Shown one piece after another: positions 9,774-28,858 of a stretch of DNA of 64,000 bases (its first letter is position 1; every line of letters starts with the position of its first letter). This stretch comes from Geminicoccus sp. (GTDB lineage: Bacteria; Pseudomonadota; Alphaproteobacteria; UBA7985): contig PAPT01000018.1 in NCBI GenBank assembly GCA_002708995.1, positions 56,962-120,961 on the forward strand, given 5' to 3'. The translations under genes were made by a program, and so were the position numbers. The notes under the pieces are model-generated. The model was given only the letters and a program-made list of their open reading frames with translations. It searched no databases and had not been told where the DNA came from.

Positions 9774-10576
9774 GCCTGACCGACGCCCAGCGCGACGCCT
9801 TCGCCAAGGCCCTGTTCGACGCCGACCGCAGCCAGAGCCAGATCCCGGTGATCAGTCAACAGCATCCGGGGCTGGATATGGAAGACGCCTACGCCATACA
9901 GGCGGCACTGGTGCGCCGGTTCGTCGACGCCGGGCGGGTGATCCGTGGCTGGAAGATCGGCCTGACGTCAAAGGCGATGCAGTACGCGCTCGATATCGAC
10001 ATCCCAGACAGCGGCGTGCTGTTCGAAGACATGTTCTTCGACAATGGCGGCGAGGTGCCCACGGCGCGCTTCATCGCCACCCGGATCGAGGCCGAAATCT
10101 GCTTCATCATGAAAGACGACCTGCAAGGCCCGGGGGTTAAGGCCGCCGATGTCATCGCGGCGACCAAAAGTATCTGCCCGTCGCTGGAGATTCTCGACAC
10201 CCGCATCATTCCCAAAGACCCCGACACCGGTGCCATCCGCAAGGTCACCGACACCATCAGCGATAACGCCGCCAACGCCGGGATCGTGCTGGGTGACGAG
10301 CGCCACGCCATCGATGCCTTTGATCTGCGCTGGGTTGGCGCCATCGTCAGCCGCGACGGCGAGGTCGAGGAAACCGGTCTGGGCGCGGGCGTGCTCAACG
10401 ACCCGGTGGAGGGTATCGTCTGGCTGGCCAACCGGCTGGCGCAGTACGGCGACAAGATCAGCGCCGGCGACGTGGTGCTCAGCGGCTCGTTCATCCGGCC
10501 GGTGCAGGCCCCCAGAGGATCGCTGATCGAGGCTGATTTCGGCGCCTTCGGACAGGTTTCCTGCCGCTTCGTCTGA
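9770..10576 (+). CDS. hpaH: 2-oxo-hept-3-ene-1,7-dioate hydratase
   Basis: Hydratase family: AYAIQAALVRRFVDAGRVIRGWKIGLTSKAMQ; ATGA overlap with hpaG. Confidence 0.88.
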   Translation: MSLTDAQRDAFAKALFDADRSQSQIPVISQQHPGLDMEDAYAIQAALVRRFVDAGRVIRGWKIGLTSKAMQYALDIDIPDSGVLFEDMFFDNGGEVPTARFIATRIEAEICFIMKDDLQGPGVKAADVIAATKSICPSLEILDTRIIPKDPDTGAIRKVTDTISDNAANAGIVLGDERHAIDAFDLRWVGAIVSRDGEVEETGLGAGVLNDPVEGIVWLANRLAQYGDKISAGDVVLSGSFIRPVQAPRGSLIEADFGAFGQVSCRFV

Positions 10577-10644
10577 GCGACTTTTTCCCAGTTTTATCAA
10601 AGAAAACAGTTGCTTCAGGCGAAGTTTGCAATAATAGTTAACAT

Positions 10645-11142
10645 ATGAATGATTTTGACATGAACGGTATCGACATCCTGGAGCGCCCGGGCTTTGAAAC
10701 CAGCCTGCCGATGATGCTCTATCGCGTGCTCGACGCGATCATGCCCGCCTACCGTGCGCTGTTCGCAGAGTACGGGCTGACCGAGCAGCAGTGGCGGGTG
10801 CTGCGCACGCTTTGGGACAACGAAAGCCTGTCGAGCACGGACGTGGCCGCGCGCACCCTGATCCCGGCGGCGAGCTTGGTCGGCGTGCTGGACCGGCTCG
10901 AACGCAAGGGCCTGATCGCTCGGATCCGCTCGGTTGAAGACCGCCGCGTGGTCATCGCCAAACTGACCGCCGAGGGGCGCGCGCTCGAGCGACAGATTGC
11001 CCCGCGTCTCGATGATATTCAGGCCTCGGTGCGGGCCTGCGTCAGCCCCGAGCAGTGGCAGGCGCTCACGCAGATACTGAAGGAATTCGAAGCCGGGCCC
11101 CGGCCCGCCGCTTCGCAGGAGGAGGACCGACAGCATGCTTAA
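10645..11142 (+). CDS. Second MarR-family regulator, HpaR-like
   Basis: FETSLPMMLYRVLDAIMPAYRALFAEYGLTEQQWRVLRTLWDNESLSSTDVAARTLIPAASLVGVLDRLERKGLI; overlaps start of hpaB. Confidence 0.8.
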   Translation: MNDFDMNGIDILERPGFETSLPMMLYRVLDAIMPAYRALFAEYGLTEQQWRVLRTLWDNESLSSTDVAARTLIPAASLVGVLDRLERKGLIARIRSVEDRRVVIAKLTAEGRALERQIAPRLDDIQASVRACVSPEQWQALTQILKEFEAGPRPAASQEEDRQHA

Positions 11143-12622
11143 GACCAACCCGACCGGCGCCGGTAAGGGCGTCCGCACGGCCGCCGAATACCTCGCCGGG
11201 CTGCAGGATGACCGCGAGGTCTGGACCGGCGGTGAGCGCGTCAAGGACGTGACCACCCACCCGGCGACGCGGCGGGGGGCGGCGACGCTGGCCAGCTTCC
11301 TCGAACGCCAGTCCGACCCGGCGCTGCTCGACACCCTGACGTACGAGGACGAGGACGGCGACCGTTGCGCCATGGCGTTCATGCTGCCCAAATCCAAGGA
11401 AGACGTGAAGCGGCGCGGCAAGGCCTACTATGAGTGGGCTACCTGGTCGCACGGCATGTTCGGCCGGACCCCCGATTATAAGAACGCCTCGCTGATGGCC
11501 TTCGCCGGTGCTGCGCAGTGGCTCGATCTTGGCACCGAGCGCGGGATGGGGAACCCTGACTTCACCCAGAACATGCGCAACTACTACGACTACGCCCGCA
11601 AGAACGATCTGGTGCTGACCCACACGCTGCTCAACCCGCACAAGTCCCACGCCGTTGCCGGGCAAGGGCGGTTTGACGACGAGGTCGCGCTGCACGTCGT
11701 GCGCGAGACCGACGCTGGGATCATCGTCCGGGGCGCGCGCCTGCTCGCCACGCTCGGTCCGACGGCGGACGAAATCGAGGTCTTCCCTTCGACCGTGCTC
11801 AAGGGCTCGGATGAGAATATTCCCTTCGCCTTTGCCTTCGCCATCCCAATTGCCACCCCGGGGCTGAAGCTGCTGGCGCGCGATACCTACGATCTGGGCA
11901 AGAGCCACTTCGATGCGCCGCTGTCCTCGCGGTTCGAGGAAATGGACGCCGTCGTGATCTTCGACGACGTGCTGGTGCCGTGGGAGCGGCTGTTCATGTA
12001 CCGCGAGCCGGGCCTGTGCAATCAGGCCTTCGCCAAGACCAACGCGGTCGTGCACATGATGCATCAAGTCGCCTGCGGCAAGCTGGCCAAGGCCGAGTTC
12101 ATGGTCGGCCTGATGTCGGCGATCGCGCAGTCGTCTGCGCGCGACAAGGACCTGCACGTCAAGGGCATGATCGCTGAGGTAATGATGATGTGCGAGACCG
12201 TGCGGGCGCTGCTGTTCTCTGCCGAGGAGCAGGCGCAAGAGGATGAGTGGGGCAACTGGATCCCGCTGCGCTGTCCGCTGGACACCTCGCGCAACCTGTT
12301 CCCGAAGATGTACCCGCGCATGGTCGAGATCCTGCAGCTGCTGGGGTCGAGCTCGCTGATGGCGACGCCGGCAGAGGCTGATTTCTCCAACGAAATCTCC
12401 GAGGACGTGGCCCGCTACTTCCAGCTCGCCAACCTTGAATCGCGCGATCGTGTGGCGCTGTTCCGGCTGGCGCACGATGTCTGTGTCAGTGGTTTCGGCA
12501 GCCGTCAGGCGCTGTACGAGCGGTTCTTCTTCGGCCCGCCCGCACTCATGCATTCGCTGTACTACGACCTCTATGACAAGGAGCCGCTGATCGGCCGAGT
12601 CAACGATTTGATCAAGGCCTGA
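11135..12622 (+). CDS. hpaB: 4-hydroxyphenylacetate 3-monooxygenase, oxygenase component
   Basis: HpaB family: GVRTAAEYLAGLQDDREVWTGGERVKDVTTHPATRRG, LVPWERLFMY. Confidence 0.9.
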   Translation: MLKTNPTGAGKGVRTAAEYLAGLQDDREVWTGGERVKDVTTHPATRRGAATLASFLERQSDPALLDTLTYEDEDGDRCAMAFMLPKSKEDVKRRGKAYYEWATWSHGMFGRTPDYKNASLMAFAGAAQWLDLGTERGMGNPDFTQNMRNYYDYARKNDLVLTHTLLNPHKSHAVAGQGRFDDEVALHVVRETDAGIIVRGARLLATLGPTADEIEVFPSTVLKGSDENIPFAFAFAIPIATPGLKLLARDTYDLGKSHFDAPLSSRFEEMDAVVIFDDVLVPWERLFMYREPGLCNQAFAKTNAVVHMMHQVACGKLAKAEFMVGLMSAIAQSSARDKDLHVKGMIAEVMMMCETVRALLFSAEEQAQEDEWGNWIPLRCPLDTSRNLFPKMYPRMVEILQLLGSSSLMATPAEADFSNEISEDVARYFQLANLESRDRVALFRLAHDVCVSGFGSRQALYERFFFGPPALMHSLYYDLYDKEPLIGRVNDLIKA

Positions 12623-19213: not shown

Positions 19214-20296
19214 TCAGAGCCGCATTGCAGCGCGCGCAGCCAATTGCAGCACACGAGACAGGATCCTTCCTGCACGCCGCTGGCTACGGCTCGCGCGACG
19301 CAGATCAGCGACAAGGTATTCGATGGCCGGCTGGGCGCCACGGTTTCTTTTGAACTGTTCAGCACCGGCACTCCAGTTGGCAAAGCGCTGACGCGATCGT
19401 GCGGTTGCATCGCTCAGGCTGACCAGCCATCGATAGAGACCCAGTTTTTGGGGCAGGTCAGTGTCGTAACCGACCACCGGACTGACGATTGTTCCGTGTT
19501 GGTCGAACTGCCCCAGAACGCCGACCATTCTCCCACCGCATTCAGGGTCGAAAAGGCCGGTGAGTTCAAAGCCGCAACGGTTCTGAAACTCTTCAAAAAA
19601 GCGACCAGTATATTGCGGGTTGAGGTGGCTGTATTTCTCGATGTAGAGCATCCGGTAGAGCCTGGCGGACTGGTCAAAATCACTTTCACCAAACGTAGTG
19701 CCAGACCGTTCGATAAACCGGCCTTTCGAACGAAGCCTAACATCTTGTTGATCATCGCGGGTTCGGTGCCAATCCTCTGGATAGGTGCGAAAAAATATTT
19801 TTCGGACGGGAAGCAGAGTCAGTCCTTCGCGGTCAAAGGCCTCAATGAGTGGACCGTGCGCTGCATCGTTTACTGAGCGCAGCACCGGAACAAAGCTCGG
19901 ATTACTATTGGACGCGGCGTCAAAAGCATCCAGCCAGGCCTCAGGCCCGACTGGTGGCAGGATATTTGTGGACACCAGCCAGTTGTTGAGTTGTATCTGA
20001 CGACCGAGTTGCATGGCCCGCACGACCGGTGAGGCTGCCCTAAGGGCTCCAGAACCAAGAGCGCGCAACAACGGATTTCGGGTAACTTGCAACAACTCGA
20101 ATTGGCCGTATTCGAGATAGGCGGTAGACGGGCAGCAGATGTAGCAGGTCGGACATCGGCCATCGTTGATCGTCGTCGGCACCTCGAAGTCCCCGACGCG
20201 TGAGATCATCATTTCAGTCTCAAGGTTGGTGACGAGCGAGCTCGTTTCAGCCTTCTGCACCATCGAGACGAATTGGCGTGTTGAAGTGTCTTGCAA
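19214..20296 (-). CDS. GNAT/FemAB-like acyltransferase, divergent from the KASIII operon
   Basis: FEVPTTINDGRCPTCYICCPSTAYLEYGQFE..., YIEKYSHLNPQYTGRFFEEF...MVGVLGQFDQHGTIVSPVVGYDT resembles FemAB-like N-acyltransferases. Confidence 0.55.
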   Translation of the reverse strand: MQDTSTRQFVSMVQKAETSSLVTNLETEMMISRVGDFEVPTTINDGRCPTCYICCPSTAYLEYGQFELLQVTRNPLLRALGSGALRAASPVVRAMQLGRQIQLNNWLVSTNILPPVGPEAWLDAFDAASNSNPSFVPVLRSVNDAAHGPLIEAFDREGLTLLPVRKIFFRTYPEDWHRTRDDQQDVRLRSKGRFIERSGTTFGESDFDQSARLYRMLYIEKYSHLNPQYTGRFFEEFQNRCGFELTGLFDPECGGRMVGVLGQFDQHGTIVSPVVGYDTDLPQKLGLYRWLVSLSDATARSRQRFANWSAGAEQFKRNRGAQPAIEYLVADLRRASRSQRRAGRILSRVLQLAARAAMRL

Positions 20297-20400
20297 CTTT
20301 TGCTCTCTATCTTTGCCTTCGCCCGGTTTGGATATTTGGACAAAGACCTTACCAAGGCTGCTAGCGCTTCGCTAAGGTTGAATGCAATATAGCTTTTACC

Positions 20401-21423
20401 GTGATTCTGCGTGGATGGTGCAAGGTGCACTCTGGTTCAAGAATATGTGGCTGGGGCCAAGCCTTACCCCGAAGGAAGCTGGCCTCGGGTCTTCTGGAAG
20501 GTCAGCATGGGCTGCCCGCTGGCTCGCTTGTGGCCTCCACCGGCGTTGAAACCCGCTACATCGCCAACCGAAGAGAGGATGAAACGCAGGTTGCACTCGG
20601 ACTTCGGGCTGGTCAGGCAGCCCTGGCATCGGCCAGCTTGCCCGCGTCATCGGTTGATTTGATAATCGCAGCCGCAGCTGTACCCCAGCAATTGATACCT
20701 GGCACTGCCGCGCTCTTTCATCGGGGGCTTGGTCTACCCGACGGCAGCTGCCGTACGATGGACGTAAACACAACTTGCCTCAGCGCCCTGTCGGCGCTCG
20801 AACTGGCCGACAGTTACATCCGGACGGGGCGAGCAAGTCGGGTCCTGATTATCAGCAGTGAGATTGCGAGTGCCGCCTTGCCCTGGAAAACCGCGCCGAA
20901 GGTTGCCGCCCTGTTTGGGGACGGAGCCGGGGCGTGGCTTATCGAAGGGGCAGATCAGCCGGGCATCCTCGGTTCGTCCTTTGCCAGCTTCCCTTCGGCT
21001 TTCGAGGCGTGCCAGATACCAGTTGGCGGGACGGCCAATACCCCGCACGATGATATTGATTTCTTTATGCAGCATGCATTTTTTGAAATGGATGGTGAGG
21101 CGCTGTACCGTTTGGTCCGGTCAGAGTTCGAAGGGTTTCTTTTTGCGTTCCTCGAACAAATTGACTGGTCTCTGGATGATGTTGACTTCTTTGTTCCGCA
21201 TCAGGCCAGCCCAGTTAGTCTAGTGCATATGGCCAGAGCATTCAGGGTGCGCCGCGAGCGATACATTGATCTGACGCGCAGTCACGGCAATCAGATCGCG
21301 GCTTCACTGCCCATTGCCTTCGCCGAAGCCCGCACAAGGGGGCAGATCAGCGATGGCTCTCGGGTCTTGCTGCTGGGAACCTCTGCGGGGGTGCAGTTTG
21401 GCGCTGCGGCATTGATCGCCTGA
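20401..21423 (+). CDS. 3-oxoacyl-ACP synthase III / OleA-like thiolase-fold enzyme
   Basis: Active-site Cys MDVNTTCLSALSALELADSYI, VPHQAS (His) and SHGNQIAASLPIAF (Asn); GTG start assumed. Confidence 0.85.
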   Translation: MILRGWCKVHSGSRICGWGQALPRRKLASGLLEGQHGLPAGSLVASTGVETRYIANRREDETQVALGLRAGQAALASASLPASSVDLIIAAAAVPQQLIPGTAALFHRGLGLPDGSCRTMDVNTTCLSALSALELADSYIRTGRASRVLIISSEIASAALPWKTAPKVAALFGDGAGAWLIEGADQPGILGSSFASFPSAFEACQIPVGGTANTPHDDIDFFMQHAFFEMDGEALYRLVRSEFEGFLFAFLEQIDWSLDDVDFFVPHQASPVSLVHMARAFRVRRERYIDLTRSHGNQIAASLPIAFAEARTRGQISDGSRVLLLGTSAGVQFGAAALIA

Positions 21424-22424
21424 TGCGGGTCCTCGTTACCGGTGGGACTGGCTTTCTCGGCGGACGTTGTCTGCAGGCCTTGGCGACGTCTGGTCGGTTC
21501 GACGCATCTGCAACAGGACGCCGTCTTTCGAGCGCGCCTGCAGGCTTCGACTTCATCGCTGCCGACCTCAGTGAGCCAGGGGCACTTGCGCGGCTTCCCG
21601 CCGTCGATGCAGTGGTCCACACGGCGGCCCTGTCATCACCTTGGGGCCGCGCGCAGGATTTTGACCAGGCAAACGTTGTTGCGACGCGCAACCTGCTTGA
21701 ATGGGCGGAGCAGGCAGGTGTGCAGCGCCTGATTCATATCTCGACTCCCGCGCTGTACTTTGCTTCCTTCGACCGGTTTGATGTCGGGGAGGAGGAGGTC
21801 TTGCCGGGCAAGCCCATCAACGACTATGCCCGGACTAAGGCACAAGCGGAAAGTCTCGTACTCCAGTCGCCTCTCAGTACGGCCATCCTGAGGCCCAGAG
21901 CTATTTACGGACCGGGCGACACGGCACTTTTACCCCGGCTCGAGGCCGCGTTGCGACGCGGGTGGCTGCCACTCATGCGTGACGGGCAGGCCGTGACAAA
22001 CCTGACCCATGTTGATGACGTATGCGATGCCATTGTTGCTGCTCTGGAAAGTTCGGCACGGGGGGTCTTCAATATTGCAGGGGGTGAGGCGATCCCGCTG
22101 AACTGGCTGGTCAACGAAATTGCCCGAGCAAACAGCTTGGCATTCCGCTGGCGACCCGTTCCTCTGTCTATAGCCATGCTCGCTGCGCGCGGCATAGAAG
22201 CCGTCTTCACTGGTTTGAAACTGCCAAGTGAGCCGCGGCTCACCCGCTACAGCCTGGGCATTTTCGCCTATAGTCTGACACTGAATACCAAGCGGGCCCA
22301 GGAGGTCTTAGGCTGGCGACCCCGAATTCCAATAGCCGATGGTTTCGAGGCGATCTTCGGCGTGCGCCCTGAGGCTTTACCCACACACGAGCGCGATGAC
22401 TATGGCAAAGAGCAGGCCTCATGA
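21423..22424 (+). CDS. NAD(P)-dependent epimerase/reductase (extended SDR, OleD-like)
   Basis: RVLVTGGTGFLGGRCLQAL; YxxxK-type NDYARTKAQAESLVL; TGATG overlap with preceding gene. Confidence 0.85.
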   Translation: MRVLVTGGTGFLGGRCLQALATSGRFDASATGRRLSSAPAGFDFIAADLSEPGALARLPAVDAVVHTAALSSPWGRAQDFDQANVVATRNLLEWAEQAGVQRLIHISTPALYFASFDRFDVGEEEVLPGKPINDYARTKAQAESLVLQSPLSTAILRPRAIYGPGDTALLPRLEAALRRGWLPLMRDGQAVTNLTHVDDVCDAIVAALESSARGVFNIAGGEAIPLNWLVNEIARANSLAFRWRPVPLSIAMLAARGIEAVFTGLKLPSEPRLTRYSLGIFAYSLTLNTKRAQEVLGWRPRIPIADGFEAIFGVRPEALPTHERDDYGKEQAS

Positions 22425-23299
22425 AATTCGAATTTTATAACAGCGCAACAATCAAGGCACCCGGCGCTTTGGTCGGGGCAGGGCCTGACTGGTCGCCGGT
22501 CACACTCAAGGTGCGCTGGGCTTTCCTCGATCACCCGACGTTCGGACCGACCCTGGTCGATACTGGTTATGGCCCGTCGACTTATCCATCGCTGGCATCG
22601 GGTGGTTCTTCACCGAGCGGCAATGGTTTACCAACTCGTAGCATCGGGCTTCGAATGTATACGAGCCTGTTCCGGGCCAGACTACGACCCGAAGGACAGA
22701 TTGACGCCGTATTGGCCGACAAGGGTCTGACCCTCGAAGACATTCAATACGTGATTGTCACCCACTTTCATGTCGATCATGTGAGCGAACTGCGCCGCTT
22801 TTCCAATGCGCGCATCCTCGCCAGCCGGCGTGGCTTCGACGCGGTTAGAAGGGCTGGCTGGCGGGCGTCCTTGCTTCACGGGACCTTTACTGAGCTTTTG
22901 CCAACGGATTTAGACCGGCGATTGGAGCCGATTGAGGCCTTGCCGCCCATCAATCTGCCGGACGGGCTTGGTACCGGCTGGTTGCTGGTGCCAGAACTGG
23001 CCTCACTGGTGCCAATGAACGGTCATGCGACGGGGCAAGTCGGAATTTATATCCATAGCGAACACTATCTCTACGCTGTCGATGCGCACTTTGTACTCGG
23101 TGCTCTTGATCGAGCCGCCGAGGGCTTGGAACCGGGTCTGACCAAGCCAAAGGTGACGCTCTCCGGTCTGCCACGCCTCATAGCCGATGATATTGCAGCG
23201 GCGGAAACCACCCTTGCGCGGCTTGCAGCCTTCAAGCGGGCCGGGGGCCGGGTCGGGCTCTGCCATGATCCTGATCGCGATCCGTTCGATGCCGGTTGA
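22421..23299 (+). CDS. MBL-fold metallo-hydrolase
   Basis: THFHVDHVSEL (HxHxDH), downstream His (NGHATGQ) and Asp (YAVDAHF); ATGA overlap. Confidence 0.85.
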   Translation: MKFEFYNSATIKAPGALVGAGPDWSPVTLKVRWAFLDHPTFGPTLVDTGYGPSTYPSLASGGSSPSGNGLPTRSIGLRMYTSLFRARLRPEGQIDAVLADKGLTLEDIQYVIVTHFHVDHVSELRRFSNARILASRRGFDAVRRAGWRASLLHGTFTELLPTDLDRRLEPIEALPPINLPDGLGTGWLLVPELASLVPMNGHATGQVGIYIHSEHYLYAVDAHFVLGALDRAAEGLEPGLTKPKVTLSGLPRLIADDIAAAETTLARLAAFKRAGGRVGLCHDPDRDPFDAG

Positions 23300-24587
23300 A
23301 GCGGGAATGGCCGTCCTGGCGGCGTTTGTGCGGGCGCGTTGGCTGGCTGCGACCTTGCGCACGCGTGAGGATGTTTTGCGCCATCAGCGCAGACAAATGG
23401 CATCGTGGCGCGCCGCGCTTACCACCCACTTTCCTCACCTTATGGCCGAGGATCTCGAAATGGACAAAGGGCAGCTGATGGCGAACTTCGCTACCTATAA
23501 CCGTGATGGTATCAGCGCGCACTTTGTTCGCAACGCGCTCGATCGAGGCGAGGCAGCCGAAGGGGGCCTGGCGCCCGGTTTGTACTGTGGTGTTTCGAGC
23601 GGGACTTCTGGCAACCGGGGGCTTTACATCATCACAGAAGCCGAGCGCTACCGCTGGCTGGGTACTATCCTCGCCAAGGGGTTACCTGACGTTTGGCGGC
23701 GGCGGCATCGCGTCGCCGTGATCCTGCCACAGAGCAGCGCACTCTACCGAGCCGGAAATCAATCCCGCTGGTTGAAGCTTGCATTCTTTGATCTCAGGCA
23801 GGGTCCGGCCTCTTGGGAAGAGGCGCTCGCTGACTTTGACCCGACCGTCATCATTGCACCGCCCAAAATTTTGCGCTGGCTCGCCGAGAATGCTGATCTC
23901 GGACGTCTCCGCCCGCAGCGGCTTTTCGCGGGGGCGGAGTCACTCGATCCACCCGATCGCTGGATCGTTGAGGCAGCCTTTTCTCTCCGTCTGGGTCAGA
24001 TTTACATGGCGACCGAAGGCCTGTTTGCCATCAGTTGTAGCGAAGGGCGGCTGCATCTGACGGAGGACTTTGTCCGGTTCGAGTTCGAGCCTGTCGGCGA
24101 TCAGCTTGTCACGCCCATTGTCACTGACTTTTCCAGACACTTTCAGCTCACATGCCGCTATCGCATGAATGATCTTCTTCGGCTGGGCGGTCGAGGCTGT
24201 CCCTGCAGGTCCCCTCTCCAGGTTGTAGATGCGGTGGAGGGCAGGCAAGACGACGTGTTCTGGTTTGGTGATCGGATGGTCACCCCCGATGTACTGCGAA
24301 ACGCTGTGCTAGACTGCAGCCCGTCGATCACGGATTTCCGCATTCAGCAGCGGCTCGATGGATCGGTGGATCTCCGCCTGCCATCAACAGTCGAACCCGC
24401 TGTCCAGAAATCAGCACTCGCTGCCCTTGAGGGTGCACTGCACACGGCGGTTCCGGTTCAGCGGTGTATGCCGGATACAAACGAACAGACCGAGGGCCCC
24501 ATCCTAGTCCGCCTAGCCAACTGGAACCTGACCCCCGACCAACTCCTGTCGCGCAAACTGCGGCGGGTCGAGCGGTTGAAGCGATGA
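23265..24587 (+). CDS. F390 synthetase-related / PaaK-like adenylate-forming enzyme
   Basis: YCGVSSGTSGNRGLYIITEAER (P-loop-like), YMATEGLFAISCSEGRLHL, TCRYRMNDLLRLGGRGCPC; start could be 23307. Confidence 0.8.
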   Translation: MILIAIRSMPVEAGMAVLAAFVRARWLAATLRTREDVLRHQRRQMASWRAALTTHFPHLMAEDLEMDKGQLMANFATYNRDGISAHFVRNALDRGEAAEGGLAPGLYCGVSSGTSGNRGLYIITEAERYRWLGTILAKGLPDVWRRRHRVAVILPQSSALYRAGNQSRWLKLAFFDLRQGPASWEEALADFDPTVIIAPPKILRWLAENADLGRLRPQRLFAGAESLDPPDRWIVEAAFSLRLGQIYMATEGLFAISCSEGRLHLTEDFVRFEFEPVGDQLVTPIVTDFSRHFQLTCRYRMNDLLRLGGRGCPCRSPLQVVDAVEGRQDDVFWFGDRMVTPDVLRNAVLDCSPSITDFRIQQRLDGSVDLRLPSTVEPAVQKSALAALEGALHTAVPVQRCMPDTNEQTEGPILVRLANWNLTPDQLLSRKLRRVERLKR

Positions 24588-25786
24588 AACGAACGGTACT
24601 CATCACGGGCCTCAGGGCGCCTGTGGCCCTGCACTGGTGCCGATTGTTCGCGGCGGCTGGCTGGCGGGTCTTCGGTGCCGACAGCCTCCGCGACCCGGTT
24701 GGTCGGTTTTCGCGTTCTATCAAAGGCTACTTGCATTTGCCTCCACCGCGATCAGAACCGGACAATTTTGCAAAAGCCATCTCCAGCGCGGTTGAAGAGA
24801 CAGACGCTGATCTTATACTCCCAACCTGCGAGGAAGTGCTTTTCTTGGCCCGGGCTGCCCTGCGCCCCGAAGCCAAAGGTTGGGCTCAGCGGCTCTTTGC
24901 CCCATCGCTCGAAGACCTGATCACACTCCACGACAAAGCCGCGTTCAATACACTGCTCGCTCGCGTGGCACCGGATTTTGCGCCGTCCTTTCAAAGCCTA
25001 GAAACTGGCGCCGACGCGGCGGCCCTCGGCGAGGGGCCGTGGGTGCTCAAGCCGAGATTTTCGCGATTTGCCACCAGCGTCTTGATCAAGCCGGACCGGG
25101 CGACGATCCTCAGGTTACCCATATCACCCGAACAGCCCTGGTTGGCGCAGGCTTATTTGCCCGGCGAGGAGATCTGTCTGTCTGCCGTCGCTGTAGGGGG
25201 GCAGCTCTTGGCCTTACAAGCCTATGAACCGCTATTACGGTTGCGTCAGGGGCGAGGTGCCAGTGTCGCCTTTGCTGCCAGTGAGGATTGGGTCGGCTCC
25301 CAGCTTCGTCATATGGTCGAGGCAGTTGCCAAGGCTTTGAACGTCACCGGGCAGCTCTCCTTTGATTTGCGTCGGGATGCTGAAGGGCAATGGCGCGCCC
25401 TGGAGTGTAATCCGCGTGCGACCAGTGGTTTTCATTTCTTCGGCCCTGATGATGGTCTGGTGGAAGCCGTGGCCGAGGGGCGGAGCGCGCTTACGGGCCG
25501 GACCCGCCCGACAGGAGAAGTTCTGGGTGAGGCCGTTCCAGCGCTGCTCGCCGGGGGGATCAGGGGGCTGTCACTCTGCCTTGGTCTCATGCGGTCAAAG
25601 GCCGGAGCGACCCGGCGCTTGCGTCCTTTGAGTGCATGGCCCGGAGATACGATTTCTCCGCTTGAACAATCTCGGGCCTTTTTCGAACTTTGGCTTCGCT
25701 CCCGCGCGCACCGATGTTCACTGGAGGAGGCTTCCACCCTCGACATCTGCTGGAATGGACCGTCTGATCGATCGCCGCTGCCTTGA
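24584..25786 (+). CDS. ATP-grasp ligase
   Basis: GPWVLKPRFSRFATSVLIK, WLAQAYLPGEEICLSAVAVGGQLLALQAY, QLSFDLRRDAEGQWRALECNPRATSG; ATGA overlap. Confidence 0.82.
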   Translation: MKRTVLITGLRAPVALHWCRLFAAAGWRVFGADSLRDPVGRFSRSIKGYLHLPPPRSEPDNFAKAISSAVEETDADLILPTCEEVLFLARAALRPEAKGWAQRLFAPSLEDLITLHDKAAFNTLLARVAPDFAPSFQSLETGADAAALGEGPWVLKPRFSRFATSVLIKPDRATILRLPISPEQPWLAQAYLPGEEICLSAVAVGGQLLALQAYEPLLRLRQGRGASVAFAASEDWVGSQLRHMVEAVAKALNVTGQLSFDLRRDAEGQWRALECNPRATSGFHFFGPDDGLVEAVAEGRSALTGRTRPTGEVLGEAVPALLAGGIRGLSLCLGLMRSKAGATRRLRPLSAWPGDTISPLEQSRAFFELWLRSRAHRCSLEEASTLDICWNGPSDRSPLP

Positions 25787-25819: not shown

Positions 25820-27004
25820 TCAGCCTCGGTTGATGGTGGCGTCGTGCTCCTCGGCCCAGGCCTCGACCCGCGGGTTGAGAACCCGGAACCACAGCGGCGG
25901 GATCAGCGCCAGCAGGAAGGTCCCCGGATAGCCGGTGGGCAGATGCGGGACGTCGTCGAAGGTACGGAGCACCTGATAATCCCGCCAGGCGTGGGCATGG
26001 TGATCACTGTGGCGCTGGAGGTTGAACAGCAGCGCGTTGGACAGCCACTGGTCGGCGTTCCAGGAATGGATCGGGCGCACTGGCTCGTAGCGGCCCTTGT
26101 CGTTGAGTGCCCGGCCCAACCCGTAGTGTTCGACGTAGTTGGCCTGGGTCAGCATGAGCCAGCAGATCAGGTGGTGCAGGGCCAGCAGCGGCAGCATGAT
26201 CCAGCCAAAGGCGAGGATCAGCGGCGCGGCGAGCAGGGCGCTCAGCCCCCAGATCTGCAGCAACTGGTTGGTGGGGTGCCAGAACCCGCGCTGCTTGGCC
26301 TTGAGGCGGCGAGCCTCGATCTGCACTGCCCCGATGATGGCCCCGGGGACTTCGCGCAGGGCAAAGGCGTAGAAGCCCTCGCCGAAGCGGGCACTGGCGC
26401 AGTCCTCGGGCGTGGCGACGCGGCTGTGATGGCCGGTGTTGTGCTCGAGGGTGAAGTGGCCGTAACCGACCAGCGCGTTGGCGATCTTGGCCGCGCGCCG
26501 GTCGAGCTTCTTGCCCGAATGGCCCAGTTCGTGGCCGACGTTGATCAACGTGCCGTGGAACAGTGCCGCGCCCGCCACCAGCACGAGCGTTGCCAGCGGT
26601 CCGCCATAGCCCGCCGACGACGGCTCGCTGGCCCAGGCGTTGATCCAAAGCCCGGCCGTGATCAGTACGGCGTAGATGCTCGCCGCGTAGATCGGAACGG
26701 TCAGATACAGCAGCGCCTTGAAAAACGGGTCACGCCCGGCGCGTTGCTCCTGCTCGGGGCTGAGGTTGAACCCATCACGCCCGCAGGCGAGGTCCAGCAG
26801 CGGGATCAGGCCGTAGAGGATCACCGGCAGGCTCAGCGCCAGCCAGGGCTGGTCCCAGACCCAGATCAGCGTCAGTACCCCCGGCGCGATCAGCGCGGTG
26901 ACAAAGCCGACCAGCCAGCGGACCCGGAAGGCGCGGGGCAGGAGGACTTGCGACGGGGGCTTGGTCGCCGGGCTCGTCGCTGGGTTGGTCGCGGGCTTGG
27001 TCAT
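25820..27004 (-). CDS. alkB: Alkane 1-monooxygenase (membrane di-iron)
   Basis: Histidine boxes HELGHSGKK, HNTGHHSRVATPEDCASARFGE, LQRHSDHHAHAWRDYQVL; start at 27004. Confidence 0.9.
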   Translation of the reverse strand: MTKPATNPATSPATKPPSQVLLPRAFRVRWLVGFVTALIAPGVLTLIWVWDQPWLALSLPVILYGLIPLLDLACGRDGFNLSPEQEQRAGRDPFFKALLYLTVPIYAASIYAVLITAGLWINAWASEPSSAGYGGPLATLVLVAGAALFHGTLINVGHELGHSGKKLDRRAAKIANALVGYGHFTLEHNTGHHSRVATPEDCASARFGEGFYAFALREVPGAIIGAVQIEARRLKAKQRGFWHPTNQLLQIWGLSALLAAPLILAFGWIMLPLLALHHLICWLMLTQANYVEHYGLGRALNDKGRYEPVRPIHSWNADQWLSNALLFNLQRHSDHHAHAWRDYQVLRTFDDVPHLPTGYPGTFLLALIPPLWFRVLNPRVEAWAEEHDATINRG

Positions 27005-27397
27005 AGCCTGACTGTGCGAAACCAGCCTGCGGGCGTCAAGCTTAGGGCGGCAGGCGCGACAATGCGCAAGGGCTGCGCGCGGCGCGGCGTTCACCGTGGC
27101 GGTACTGGTGAACAAGCCTCTAGCTGGTCAATATCACCCAAAACGAGAAATAAAAAATCCTGACGACACCTATAATGGTCAGATTATTTCACCGCTGACA
27201 TCGCTGAAATACCGGGAAAACAGCCGTTTCCTTTGTTCAAGCGGCGGACAAGCGGGCGTTACGGAAGCCTGCGAAAACCCTCCTCGTCAACCACGACGTC
27301 CTTTCCACTCTCCTAACCATGCAACCTCCCTTCCTCCCTTCCTCCCGTCTCTTCTTCTCCACCACACAGTCCAAGACCCCATCAAAGGAACAAACCC

Positions 27398-27850
27398 ATG
27401 CTTCTCAAATCTGCCCTCAAAGTCGCTGCTGCTTCTGCTGCTGTCCTCGTGGCTTCGACCACCGTCGCGACCAGTGCACAGGCCTTCTGGTTCAATACCG
27501 TCAACATCAACCAGTATGGCTTCGACAACGCCATTGCCGGATCGCAGACCGGCCTCTTCAACCACATCGAATTCTGGCAGGACGGTGCCTGGAACACCGC
27601 CGTCACAGCACAGGACGGCGCGGGCAACGTCATTGCCATCGGCCAATCCGGCTTTGGTAATCAGGCCTATGGCGACCAGTTCGGCGACTGCAATGTCTCC
27701 GGGATCGGTCAGTTCGGCGGCGGTCACTACGCCGAGACCAACCAGAGCGGCGACTGCAACGCTGTTGCGGTTCTGCAGTTCGGTTCCGGTCAGTCGACCA
27801 CGGCCAACCAGGTCGGCTCCGGCAACTCAGCCGTGATCATCCAGTATTAA
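27398..27850 (+). CDS. Curlin-repeat (CsgA/CsgB-like) secreted protein
   Basis: Signal peptide, then GNVIAIGQSGFGNQAYGDQFGDCNVSGIGQFGGGHYAETNQSGDCNAVAVLQFGSGQSTTANQVGSGNSAVIIQY. Confidence 0.82.
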   Translation: MLLKSALKVAAASAAVLVASTTVATSAQAFWFNTVNINQYGFDNAIAGSQTGLFNHIEFWQDGAWNTAVTAQDGAGNVIAIGQSGFGNQAYGDQFGDCNVSGIGQFGGGHYAETNQSGDCNAVAVLQFGSGQSTTANQVGSGNSAVIIQY

Positions 27851-27907
27851 GCGCCCCCTGCGCCCGGGGACGGGGCGGGGCTGGTCCGTTGTAAATGTGC
27901 GGCCGAC

Positions 27908-27984
27908 TGGCCCCACCTCCCTCTCTATCACTTTTTCTCTCTGCCTCTTCCTCCTCCTCTCTTTCTCTCTCTCTCTCTCTCTTT
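27908..27984 (+). repeat. Polypyrimidine leader with (TC)9T microsatellite at 27964-27982
   Basis: Uninterrupted tctctctctctctctctct immediately 5' of AAGGA and the curlin ATG at 28002. Confidence 0.85.
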
Positions 27985-28001
27985 GCTCAAGGAACCCCGC
28001 C

Positions 28002-28436
28002 ATGTCTTTCTCGCTCAAAACCCTCAAAATCGCCGGCGCTGCAGCCGTTGCTTCTCTCTCGCTCGCCGGGATGAACACAGCTGCCCAGGCCGACGCCCAA
28101 CTCTCTGGTCAACTCTCCATCGGTATCCAGGGCTCGAACGCCGAAGAAAACGCGGCCATCGCCAACGGCCTGTTTCTCTACGCCCTGTTTCAGGGGTTGA
28201 ATGGTGATACCGCCATGCTGCAGCAGCTTGGCAACGGCAACGCCGCGAGCCTGTCACAGGGCGGCTTCGGCAACTTTGCTATCGTCGAACAGAATGGCGA
28301 TGGTCATACGGCGAACCTGGATCAATCCGGCAACCAGAATGCCTTCGGCCTGTTCCAGTTCGGTGAAGGTACCACCGGCCACGTCAGCCAGTCGGGCAAC
28401 GGCCAGTCTGGCCTGCTGTTCCAGCTTGGGTTCTGA
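28002..28436 (+). CDS. Curlin-repeat secreted protein, second paralogue
   Basis: Signal peptide; LQQLGNGNAASLSQGGFGNFAIVEQNGDGHTANLDQSGNQNAFGLFQFGEGTTGHVSQSGNGQSGLLFQLGF. Confidence 0.82.
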   Translation: MSFSLKTLKIAGAAAVASLSLAGMNTAAQADAQLSGQLSIGIQGSNAEENAAIANGLFLYALFQGLNGDTAMLQQLGNGNAASLSQGGFGNFAIVEQNGDGHTANLDQSGNQNAFGLFQFGEGTTGHVSQSGNGQSGLLFQLGF

Positions 28437-28472: not shown

Positions 28473-28702
28473 GTTGCGTGCTCGATTTGACGCCGCTTCG
28501 CGGCTTACAAATCTCCTGCGCGCAGTTAAACGGACAGGCCGCGTTACATTCGGCCTGACGTCTTTTTGCATTTTCTAAAAAAATGCGCGCGGGAGGGCCG
28601 AAGGCTGCGAAGCGGTCGAGACAAGGTCGGCGCAACTTCTTTCAGTAGACACTCAAGACGCTTCGCTTTGAGTGTTGCTGCATCGAGGAACTCCAACGCG
28701 CT
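28473..28702 (+). repeat. Dispersed intergenic repeat, copy A
   Basis: ggttgcgtgctcgatttgacgccgcttcgcggcttacaaatctcctgcgcgcagttaaacggacaggccgcg..., highly similar to 49264-49510. Confidence 0.85.
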
Positions 28703-28858
28703 CACAGCGCAGCGTTTTGAGCGCAAAGAAAATACGCCGCACACAGCGCAGCGTTTTGAGCGCAAGGAAAATACGTCGCTCACAGCGCAGCGTTTTGAGC
28801 GCAAGGAAAATACGTCGCTCACAGCGCAGCGTTTTGAGCGCAACGGAAAGACGCCTTT
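28703..28858. repeat. Tandem repeat, 4 units of 39 bp
   Basis: CACAGCGCAGCGTTTTGAGCGCAAGGAAAATACGTCGCT units starting 28703, 28742, 28781, 28820. Confidence 0.92.

Follow-up and report, generated by a model that had tools for sequence, protein, structure and literature searches.

What does an operon make when it sets a condensing enzyme, a reductase, a hydrolase, and two ligases in one closely packed row and leaves no room for a carrier protein? The question is raised by a six-gene cluster in a 64,000-nucleotide stretch of Geminicoccus sp. contig PAPT01000018.1 (positions 56,962 to 120,961; hereafter the window), which comes from an alphaproteobacterial genome assembly of 2.6 Mb, belonging to a small order and probably marine in habitat. 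Four core genes encode a β-ketoacyl-acyl carrier protein synthase III (KASIII)-type condensing enzyme, an extended short-chain dehydrogenase/reductase (SDR), a metallo-β-lactamase-fold (MBL) hydrolase, and an adenylate-forming ligase related to F390 synthetase and PaaK; these are followed by an ATP-grasp ligase gene and preceded by a divergent GNAT-like gene (Table 1). With a probability that we put at roughly 55%, the cluster belongs to a widespread, laterally mobile, and uncharacterised family in which a fixed scaffold-forming core is combined with exchangeable end-group enzymes, yielding a lipid-like product. In the best reading, the core probably makes a hydroxylated long-chain scaffold, to which the variable enzyme adds a polar end.

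In 97 of 102 loci, profile searches recovered the complete four-gene core. Their order and strand are identical in 81 loci, and 12 more differ solely by an inverted ligase gene. Furthermore, the trees of the four genes have 39–47 of 92 splits in common, against 0.1–0.2 expected, and their pairwise distances correlate at 0.87–0.93. The core genes are a single co-inherited unit with a shared history and, since the gene order recurs across phyla, the cluster pattern goes beyond chance. The initial annotation had named a failure of the genes to co-occur elsewhere as the result that would speak against it; the reverse was found. The window locus itself shows adjacent KASIII, SDR, MBL, and F390-like genes with intact catalytic residues, as in the rest of the family. 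Weaker F390-like matches (loci L042–L047; best E ~1e-11 to 1e-18) came without core genes and were excluded as other PaaK-like families. A rearranged core, in the order SDR-MBL-ligase-KASIII, was seen in Streptococcus parasanguinis (L134), where a glycosyltransferase precedes it, and in Fusobacterium vincentii (L150).

What varies is the enzyme placed beside this core, often in the gene immediately downstream of the ligase. When neighboring open reading frames (ORFs) were clustered, the core accounted for four families; next came ATP-grasp (71 loci), GNAT (62), and Rieske (58), and the remaining families were much rarer or a matter of local synteny. Loci without ATP-grasp carry a GT28/MGT-type glycosyltransferase (8 loci), DUF3419 (5), a sulfotransferase (3), or a combination of PAP2, fatty-acid hydroxylase, and desaturase (4). 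Over 95 loci, 70 have ATP-grasp only, 20 an alternative only, five neither, and none both—that is, ATP-grasp never accompanies the glycosyltransferase, DUF3419, sulfotransferase, or PAP2 in the loci examined. The Fisher p for this exclusivity is 3e-16 with relatedness ignored; among 12 phylogenetically independent contrasts, 8–9 were opposite and none the same (sign p ~0.008). Well-supported tree branches force at least 12 changes in the presence of ATP-grasp, and DUF3419 has five separate tree placements. Four loci (L149 and L151–L153), with the core, an alternative module, and no ATP-grasp, also fit the exclusivity, and the window locus has ATP-grasp as its sole end-group type. Lineages differ in their end-group enzyme, and no sampled locus has more than one type.

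A hydroxyl is a common acceptor for sulfotransferases and glycosyltransferases, and the alternatives found in Escherichia coli are of lipid type, namely an OlsE-like fatty-acid hydroxylase, desaturases, and PAP2. DUF3419 corresponds to the BtaA family, and BtaA uses S-adenosylmethionine to convert diacylglycerol into an O-homoserine ether (PMC6642084, PMC10685587). From the acceptors of these enzymes, a hydroxyl-bearing lipid scaffold is proposed. In the pathway so envisaged, KASIII would take an acyl thioester longer than acetyl and condense it with a malonyl or β-ketoacyl thioester, the SDR would reduce the ketone to a hydroxyl, the MBL hydrolase would open the thioester or a lactone, and the F390-like ligase would adenylate either the acid thus released or a partner acid, so that it can be passed to coenzyme A (CoA), OH, or NH2. 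In the window version, the ATP-grasp ligase would then link the product to an amino-acid-like group, and an acyl or aminoacyl group would be added by the dual-GNAT protein; in other lineages, a sugar, sulfate, or 3-amino-3-carboxypropyl group would replace the ATP-grasp product. The outcome would be an amphiphilic, lipid-like metabolite, either retained in the membrane or secreted.

The first of these steps bears on the initial annotation's comparison of the operon with an Ole (olefin/β-lactone) pathway. The Cys-His-Asn triad that it described is indeed intact, with Cys126-His267-Asn297 invariant in the 58 sequences of two alignments (13 + 45), but the analogy fails at this first step. The KASIII profile scored 318 bits to MxnB (4v2p), 310 to CorB (4yuc), 270 to FabH, 169 to PqsD, and ~124 to OleA; when the window sequence was used by itself, MxnB and CorB were slightly outscored by two FabH entries. 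In FabH, a smaller side chain at the pocket site corresponding to position 99 permits longer acyl chains. The window KASIII has Ile99, and a separate FabH-type KASIII encoded elsewhere in the host genome has Phe at that site (read by eye). The general-base Glu of OleA (E117) and PpyS (E105) is Val94 in MxnB and CorB (PMC4578411), which aligns with Ile99 of the window protein (phmmer alignment), and all 58 KASIII sequences have Ile or Leu at the OleA-Glu site. OleA-type condensation of two unactivated acyl chains thus appears unlikely, with malonyl or β-ketoacyl being the expected nucleophile. Membership in the Ole pathway proper was rejected, as the Glu is missing, the KASIII is distant, and neither OleB nor OleC is present. 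A looser, Ole-type route to an olefin or β-lactone is improbable: the same four reaction classes are gathered in one operon and the best named match of the SDR is the OleD family (164 bits against a 580-bit cut-off), but the KASIII is far from OleA and lacks its catalytic Glu, the ligase reaches just 16 bits against the AMP-binding Pfam model, with TIGR02304 as its nearest family, and an olefin pathway has no place for end-group enzymes.

The same KASIII evidence bears on an α-pyrone-type route, in which KASIII would join two chains, one of them a β-ketoacyl thioester, and the lactonase-like MBL hydrolase would then open the lactone. By profile, no solved KASIII relatives rank above MxnB and CorB; these have in common with the window protein a Gln at its position 97 and carry the Val94 in place of Glu that corresponds to Ile99 here (PMC4578411). 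However, no function in pyrone systems is known for the SDR or the ligase, and MxnB and CorB fall inside the FabH clade (PMC4578411), so that the similarity may reflect common FabH ancestry. This route appears highly improbable.

The other core enzymes also conserve their motifs. The SDR retains Tyr135xxxLys139 and the nucleotide-binding Gly motif; the metal ligand set of the MBL hydrolase (HxHxDH plus His202, Asp221, and His282) is invariant, and its nearest solved relatives are lactonases. In the ligase, SSGTSG, TEG, GRxDD, the C-terminal Lys431, and a Cys/His set are conserved. TIGR02304 is its best family by far, at 224 bits against a curated cut-off of 251.9, with the E. coli relative reaching 755 bits; the window ligase appears to be a diverged relative of this family rather than a strict member. 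Its nearest solved relatives are PaaK-like aryl-CoA ligases and AjiA1, as would be expected if the cluster made a small secreted molecule instead of a lipid, namely a signal or antibiotic of aryl-polyketide type or resembling the Pseudomonas quinolone signal (PQS). The PaaK-like ligase would then provide an aryl-CoA starter, KASIII would extend it with malonyl, the MBL protein would serve as thioesterase, the SDR would reduce the ketone, and the ATP-grasp and GNAT enzymes would add an amino acid. The PQS enzyme set (PqsA, PqsD, and PqsE) likewise consists of a ligase, a KASIII, and an MBL protein, the similarity of the KASIII to PqsD is significant (169 bits), and TetR regulators flank several loci. 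However, MxnB/CorB and FabH are closer to the KASIII than PqsD is, the solved relatives of the MBL profile at E <= 1e-6 begin with lactonases and do not include PqsE, and the BtaA-like, OlsE-like, and desaturase modules suit a lipid better. A PQS-like product is a serious candidate, if a rather unlikely one.

For the GNAT and ATP-grasp proteins, sequence comparison gave sub-threshold matches in place of a curated name (PF13480 for GNAT; for ATP-grasp, the Pfam families in Table 1 and PRK06849 at 233 of 406 bits), and their sequence relatives in the PDB were absent or remote; their folds were therefore predicted. The AlphaFold2 model of the ATP-grasp protein (predicted local distance difference test, pLDDT, 92) has L-amino-acid ligases 3vot and 4wd3 as its nearest PDB folds. 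That of the GNAT protein (pLDDT 95) is near the MprF aminoacyl-phosphatidylglycerol synthases (aPGS), FemX, and Sbb17, with Foldseek giving E ~1e-6 to 1e-5 and probability 1.00 to MprF/FemX at template modeling (TM) scores of only 0.42–0.55. Both predicted folds would be consistent with the "peptide-bond-type chemistry" suggested at the outset. The divergent GNAT gene of the window groups with the in-operon GNAT genes of relatives in one family spanning 62 loci, which bears out its inclusion in the system, probably as a tailoring enzyme. Since GNAT and Rieske genes also accompany DUF3419, both enzymes are more likely to act on the scaffold or acyl part than to provide the exchanged end group. 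No PADLOC model for anti-phage defence was matched by any of the six proteins.

Within the genus, ligase and ATP-grasp genes are present in all six genomes, the GNAT gene adjoins the core in all six, and the order GNAT (−), KASIII, SDR, MBL, ligase, ATP-grasp is identical in the five others; in the order's other five genomes, neither the ligase nor the ATP-grasp gene was found. The wider spread is patchy: in evenly drawn genome sets, 6 of 385 from the class and 15 of 399 from the phylum had a ligase match at E <= 1e-10, some of these being weak matches to other PaaK-like families. A scan with one genome per species gave at least 585 species-level ligase relatives, of which the best 80 were read, ranging from Rhizobiales to Brevibacillus, Streptococcus, and Eremiobacterota. 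The cluster occurs in Alpha-, Beta-, and Gammaproteobacteria, Bacillota, Fusobacteriota, and one Eremiobacterota metagenome-assembled genome, and on plasmid records from Rhizobium, Shinella, Paenibacillus, Pontibacillus, Paraburkholderia, Paracoccus, Ketogulonicigenium, and an E. coli record. On the plasmid of Paracoccus sp. MA (L151), phosphatidylserine decarboxylase and pssA genes (10472–11895) lie 3–5 kb past the sulfotransferase-type cluster. A seven-gene version in E. coli—the core plus PAP2, OlsE-like hydroxylase, and desaturase—is present in 674 of 5,426 complete genomes (~12%, ~1 in 8), with the copy in EC958 (L136; NZ_HG941718.1, 1403700–1410581) located between narI and tRNA-Tyr/purU. 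No published description of this E. coli cluster was found, and searches of the open-access literature under several names, with subscription papers and preprints outside their scope, found none of the cluster in general.

As for the window copy, its base composition sets it apart. The 6.6-kb cluster segment has 59.3% GC versus 63.7% for the remaining window, and only 1 of 230 equal-length window segments is as low, in agreement with the initial impression of a GC content below that of the surroundings. GC at third codon positions is 0.60–0.68 in the cluster genes versus 0.85–0.88 in four flanking genes. Genus-mates of lower overall GC have no such contrast, so the low GC may reflect a recent gain of the cluster by this lineage, or a lag within it, and not foreignness of the whole family.

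ORFs were found at the positions first given for all six genes, and the enzyme classes then named hold as family assignments; the description as one uncharacterised biosynthetic operon without a carrier protein is likewise supported, the cluster having no ORF space for a carrier. Overlap had been claimed at every junction. The sequences TGATG (KASIII/SDR), ATGA (SDR/MBL), and ATGA (ligase/ATP-grasp) are as described, while the fourth overlap, given as ~34 nt, is 35 nt if the ligase begins at its first ATG, 23265; the alignment of homologues prefers an in-frame start further on, at the ATG of 23289 or of 23307, in which case the MBL/ligase overlap would be 11 nt or zero. A promoter scan of the 104-bp intergenic region detected no sigma-70-like site.

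Table 1. Genes and intergenic region of the cluster (window coordinates)
Feature	Coordinates	Strand	Remarks
GNAT-like gene, dual-GNAT acyl/aminoacyl-transferase-like	19214..20296	-	divergent; 360 aa; TTG start
Intergenic region (104 bp), GNAT gene/operon	20297..20400		presumed to hold both promoters, on the basis of position only
KASIII condensing enzyme, core gene 1	20401..21423	+	PF08545/PF08541; later in-frame start codon possible
Extended SDR/3beta-HSD-type reductase, core gene 2	21423..22424	+	PF01370/PF01073
MBL-fold hydrolase, core gene 3	22421..23299	+	PF00753
F390-synthetase-related/PaaK-like adenylate-forming ligase, core gene 4	23265..24587	+	start maybe 23289 or 23307
ATP-grasp ligase, variable end-group position	24584..25786	+	sub-threshold PF02655/PF15632

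Downstream of the operon, an AlkB-like membrane hydroxylase/desaturase gene (25820–27115, minus strand) is found in five of six genus genomes; it was rejected as a cluster member, adjoining the cluster in only three of them and lying unlinked on other contigs in two. Beyond it, two curlin-type secreted proteins are encoded on the plus strand, one (27398–27850) matching Curlin_rpt and the curli subunit models CsgB/CsgA, and the other (27897–28436) having similar N/Q/G-rich repeats by eye. A 39-bp unit in four tandem copies (93% match; 28699–28855) lies directly past the curlin genes.

Several points weigh against a core-plus-end-group pathway to a lipid. The exclusivity of the end-group types was noticed after inspection, with the families named from the same loci, and so calls for an independent repeat; the 80 loci of the main scan are skewed to Alphaproteobacteria; and the TM scores of the GNAT model are modest. 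Aromatic acids are frequent substrates of PaaK-like ligases, so the starter may yet be aromatic. Each reaction step is inferred, as are the amino-acid attachment and the lipid character of the product. In addition, two Pseudomonas megaplasmids have incomplete or scattered sets—ligase and ATP-grasp in one case and SDR, MBL, ligase, and ATP-grasp in the other, with KASIII undetected in the stretch (L147, pMPPla107; L148, pBASL58).

The pathway is conserved across phyla, in hundreds of species that include tractable strains of Mesorhizobium, Rhizobium, Maricaulis, and Brevibacillus, and no product assigned to it was found. Its fixed core and swapped end-group enzymes predict a common mass core with lineage-specific mass shifts. 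A membrane lipid would add a lipid class; a secreted product would represent a new signal or antibiotic family. Only tentatively can the further step be taken of proposing an unrecognised class of bacterial polar lipids, in which four enzymes, with no carrier protein of their own, would build a non-glycerol backbone and separate lineages would independently furnish it with amino acid, sugar, sulfate, or homoserine-type ends. The expected carriers would include many rhizobia, roseobacters, sphingomonads, and bacilli along with ~12% of complete E. coli genomes, and the variation in end groups would be comparable to that of phospholipid head groups.

Among known systems, OleABCD, with which the lipstatin-type LstABCD is grouped, resembles the cluster in having a KASIII, an OleD-like SDR, an ANL ligase, and a hydrolase in one operon. 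However, the window KASIII is of another lineage without the catalytic Glu, an MBL protein replaces the α/β-hydrolase OleB, the F390-like ligase replaces OleC, and the end-group enzymes are exchangeable. MxnB and CorB, of myxopyronin and corallopyronin synthesis, are the closest solved KASIII relatives, with a hydrophobic residue at the OleA Glu site and a shared Gln; they work at the end of multimodular polyketide synthase (PKS) lines, whereas the window cluster has neither a PKS nor a carrier protein. The PQS system has the same combination of ANL ligase, KASIII, and MBL hydrolase, but here an SDR, an ATP-grasp ligase, and a dual-GNAT protein are added, and the MBL and KASIII proteins are not closest to PqsE and PqsD. 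The polar-lipid head-group enzymes BtaA (DUF3419), OlsE, and MprF have family members or fold relatives among the variable and tailoring parts of the cluster; they act on glycerolipids or ornithine lipids, whereas here their counterparts are tied to a KASIII-SDR-MBL-ligase core. Finally, in the anammox bacterium Kuenenia and in D. psychrophila, PaaK/F390-like ligases stand beside fatty-acid-type genes and, linked to type II fatty acid synthesis (FASII), have been proposed to start glycerol attachment (PMC2649909); those are FASII gene sets, unlike the four-gene core without a carrier protein described here.

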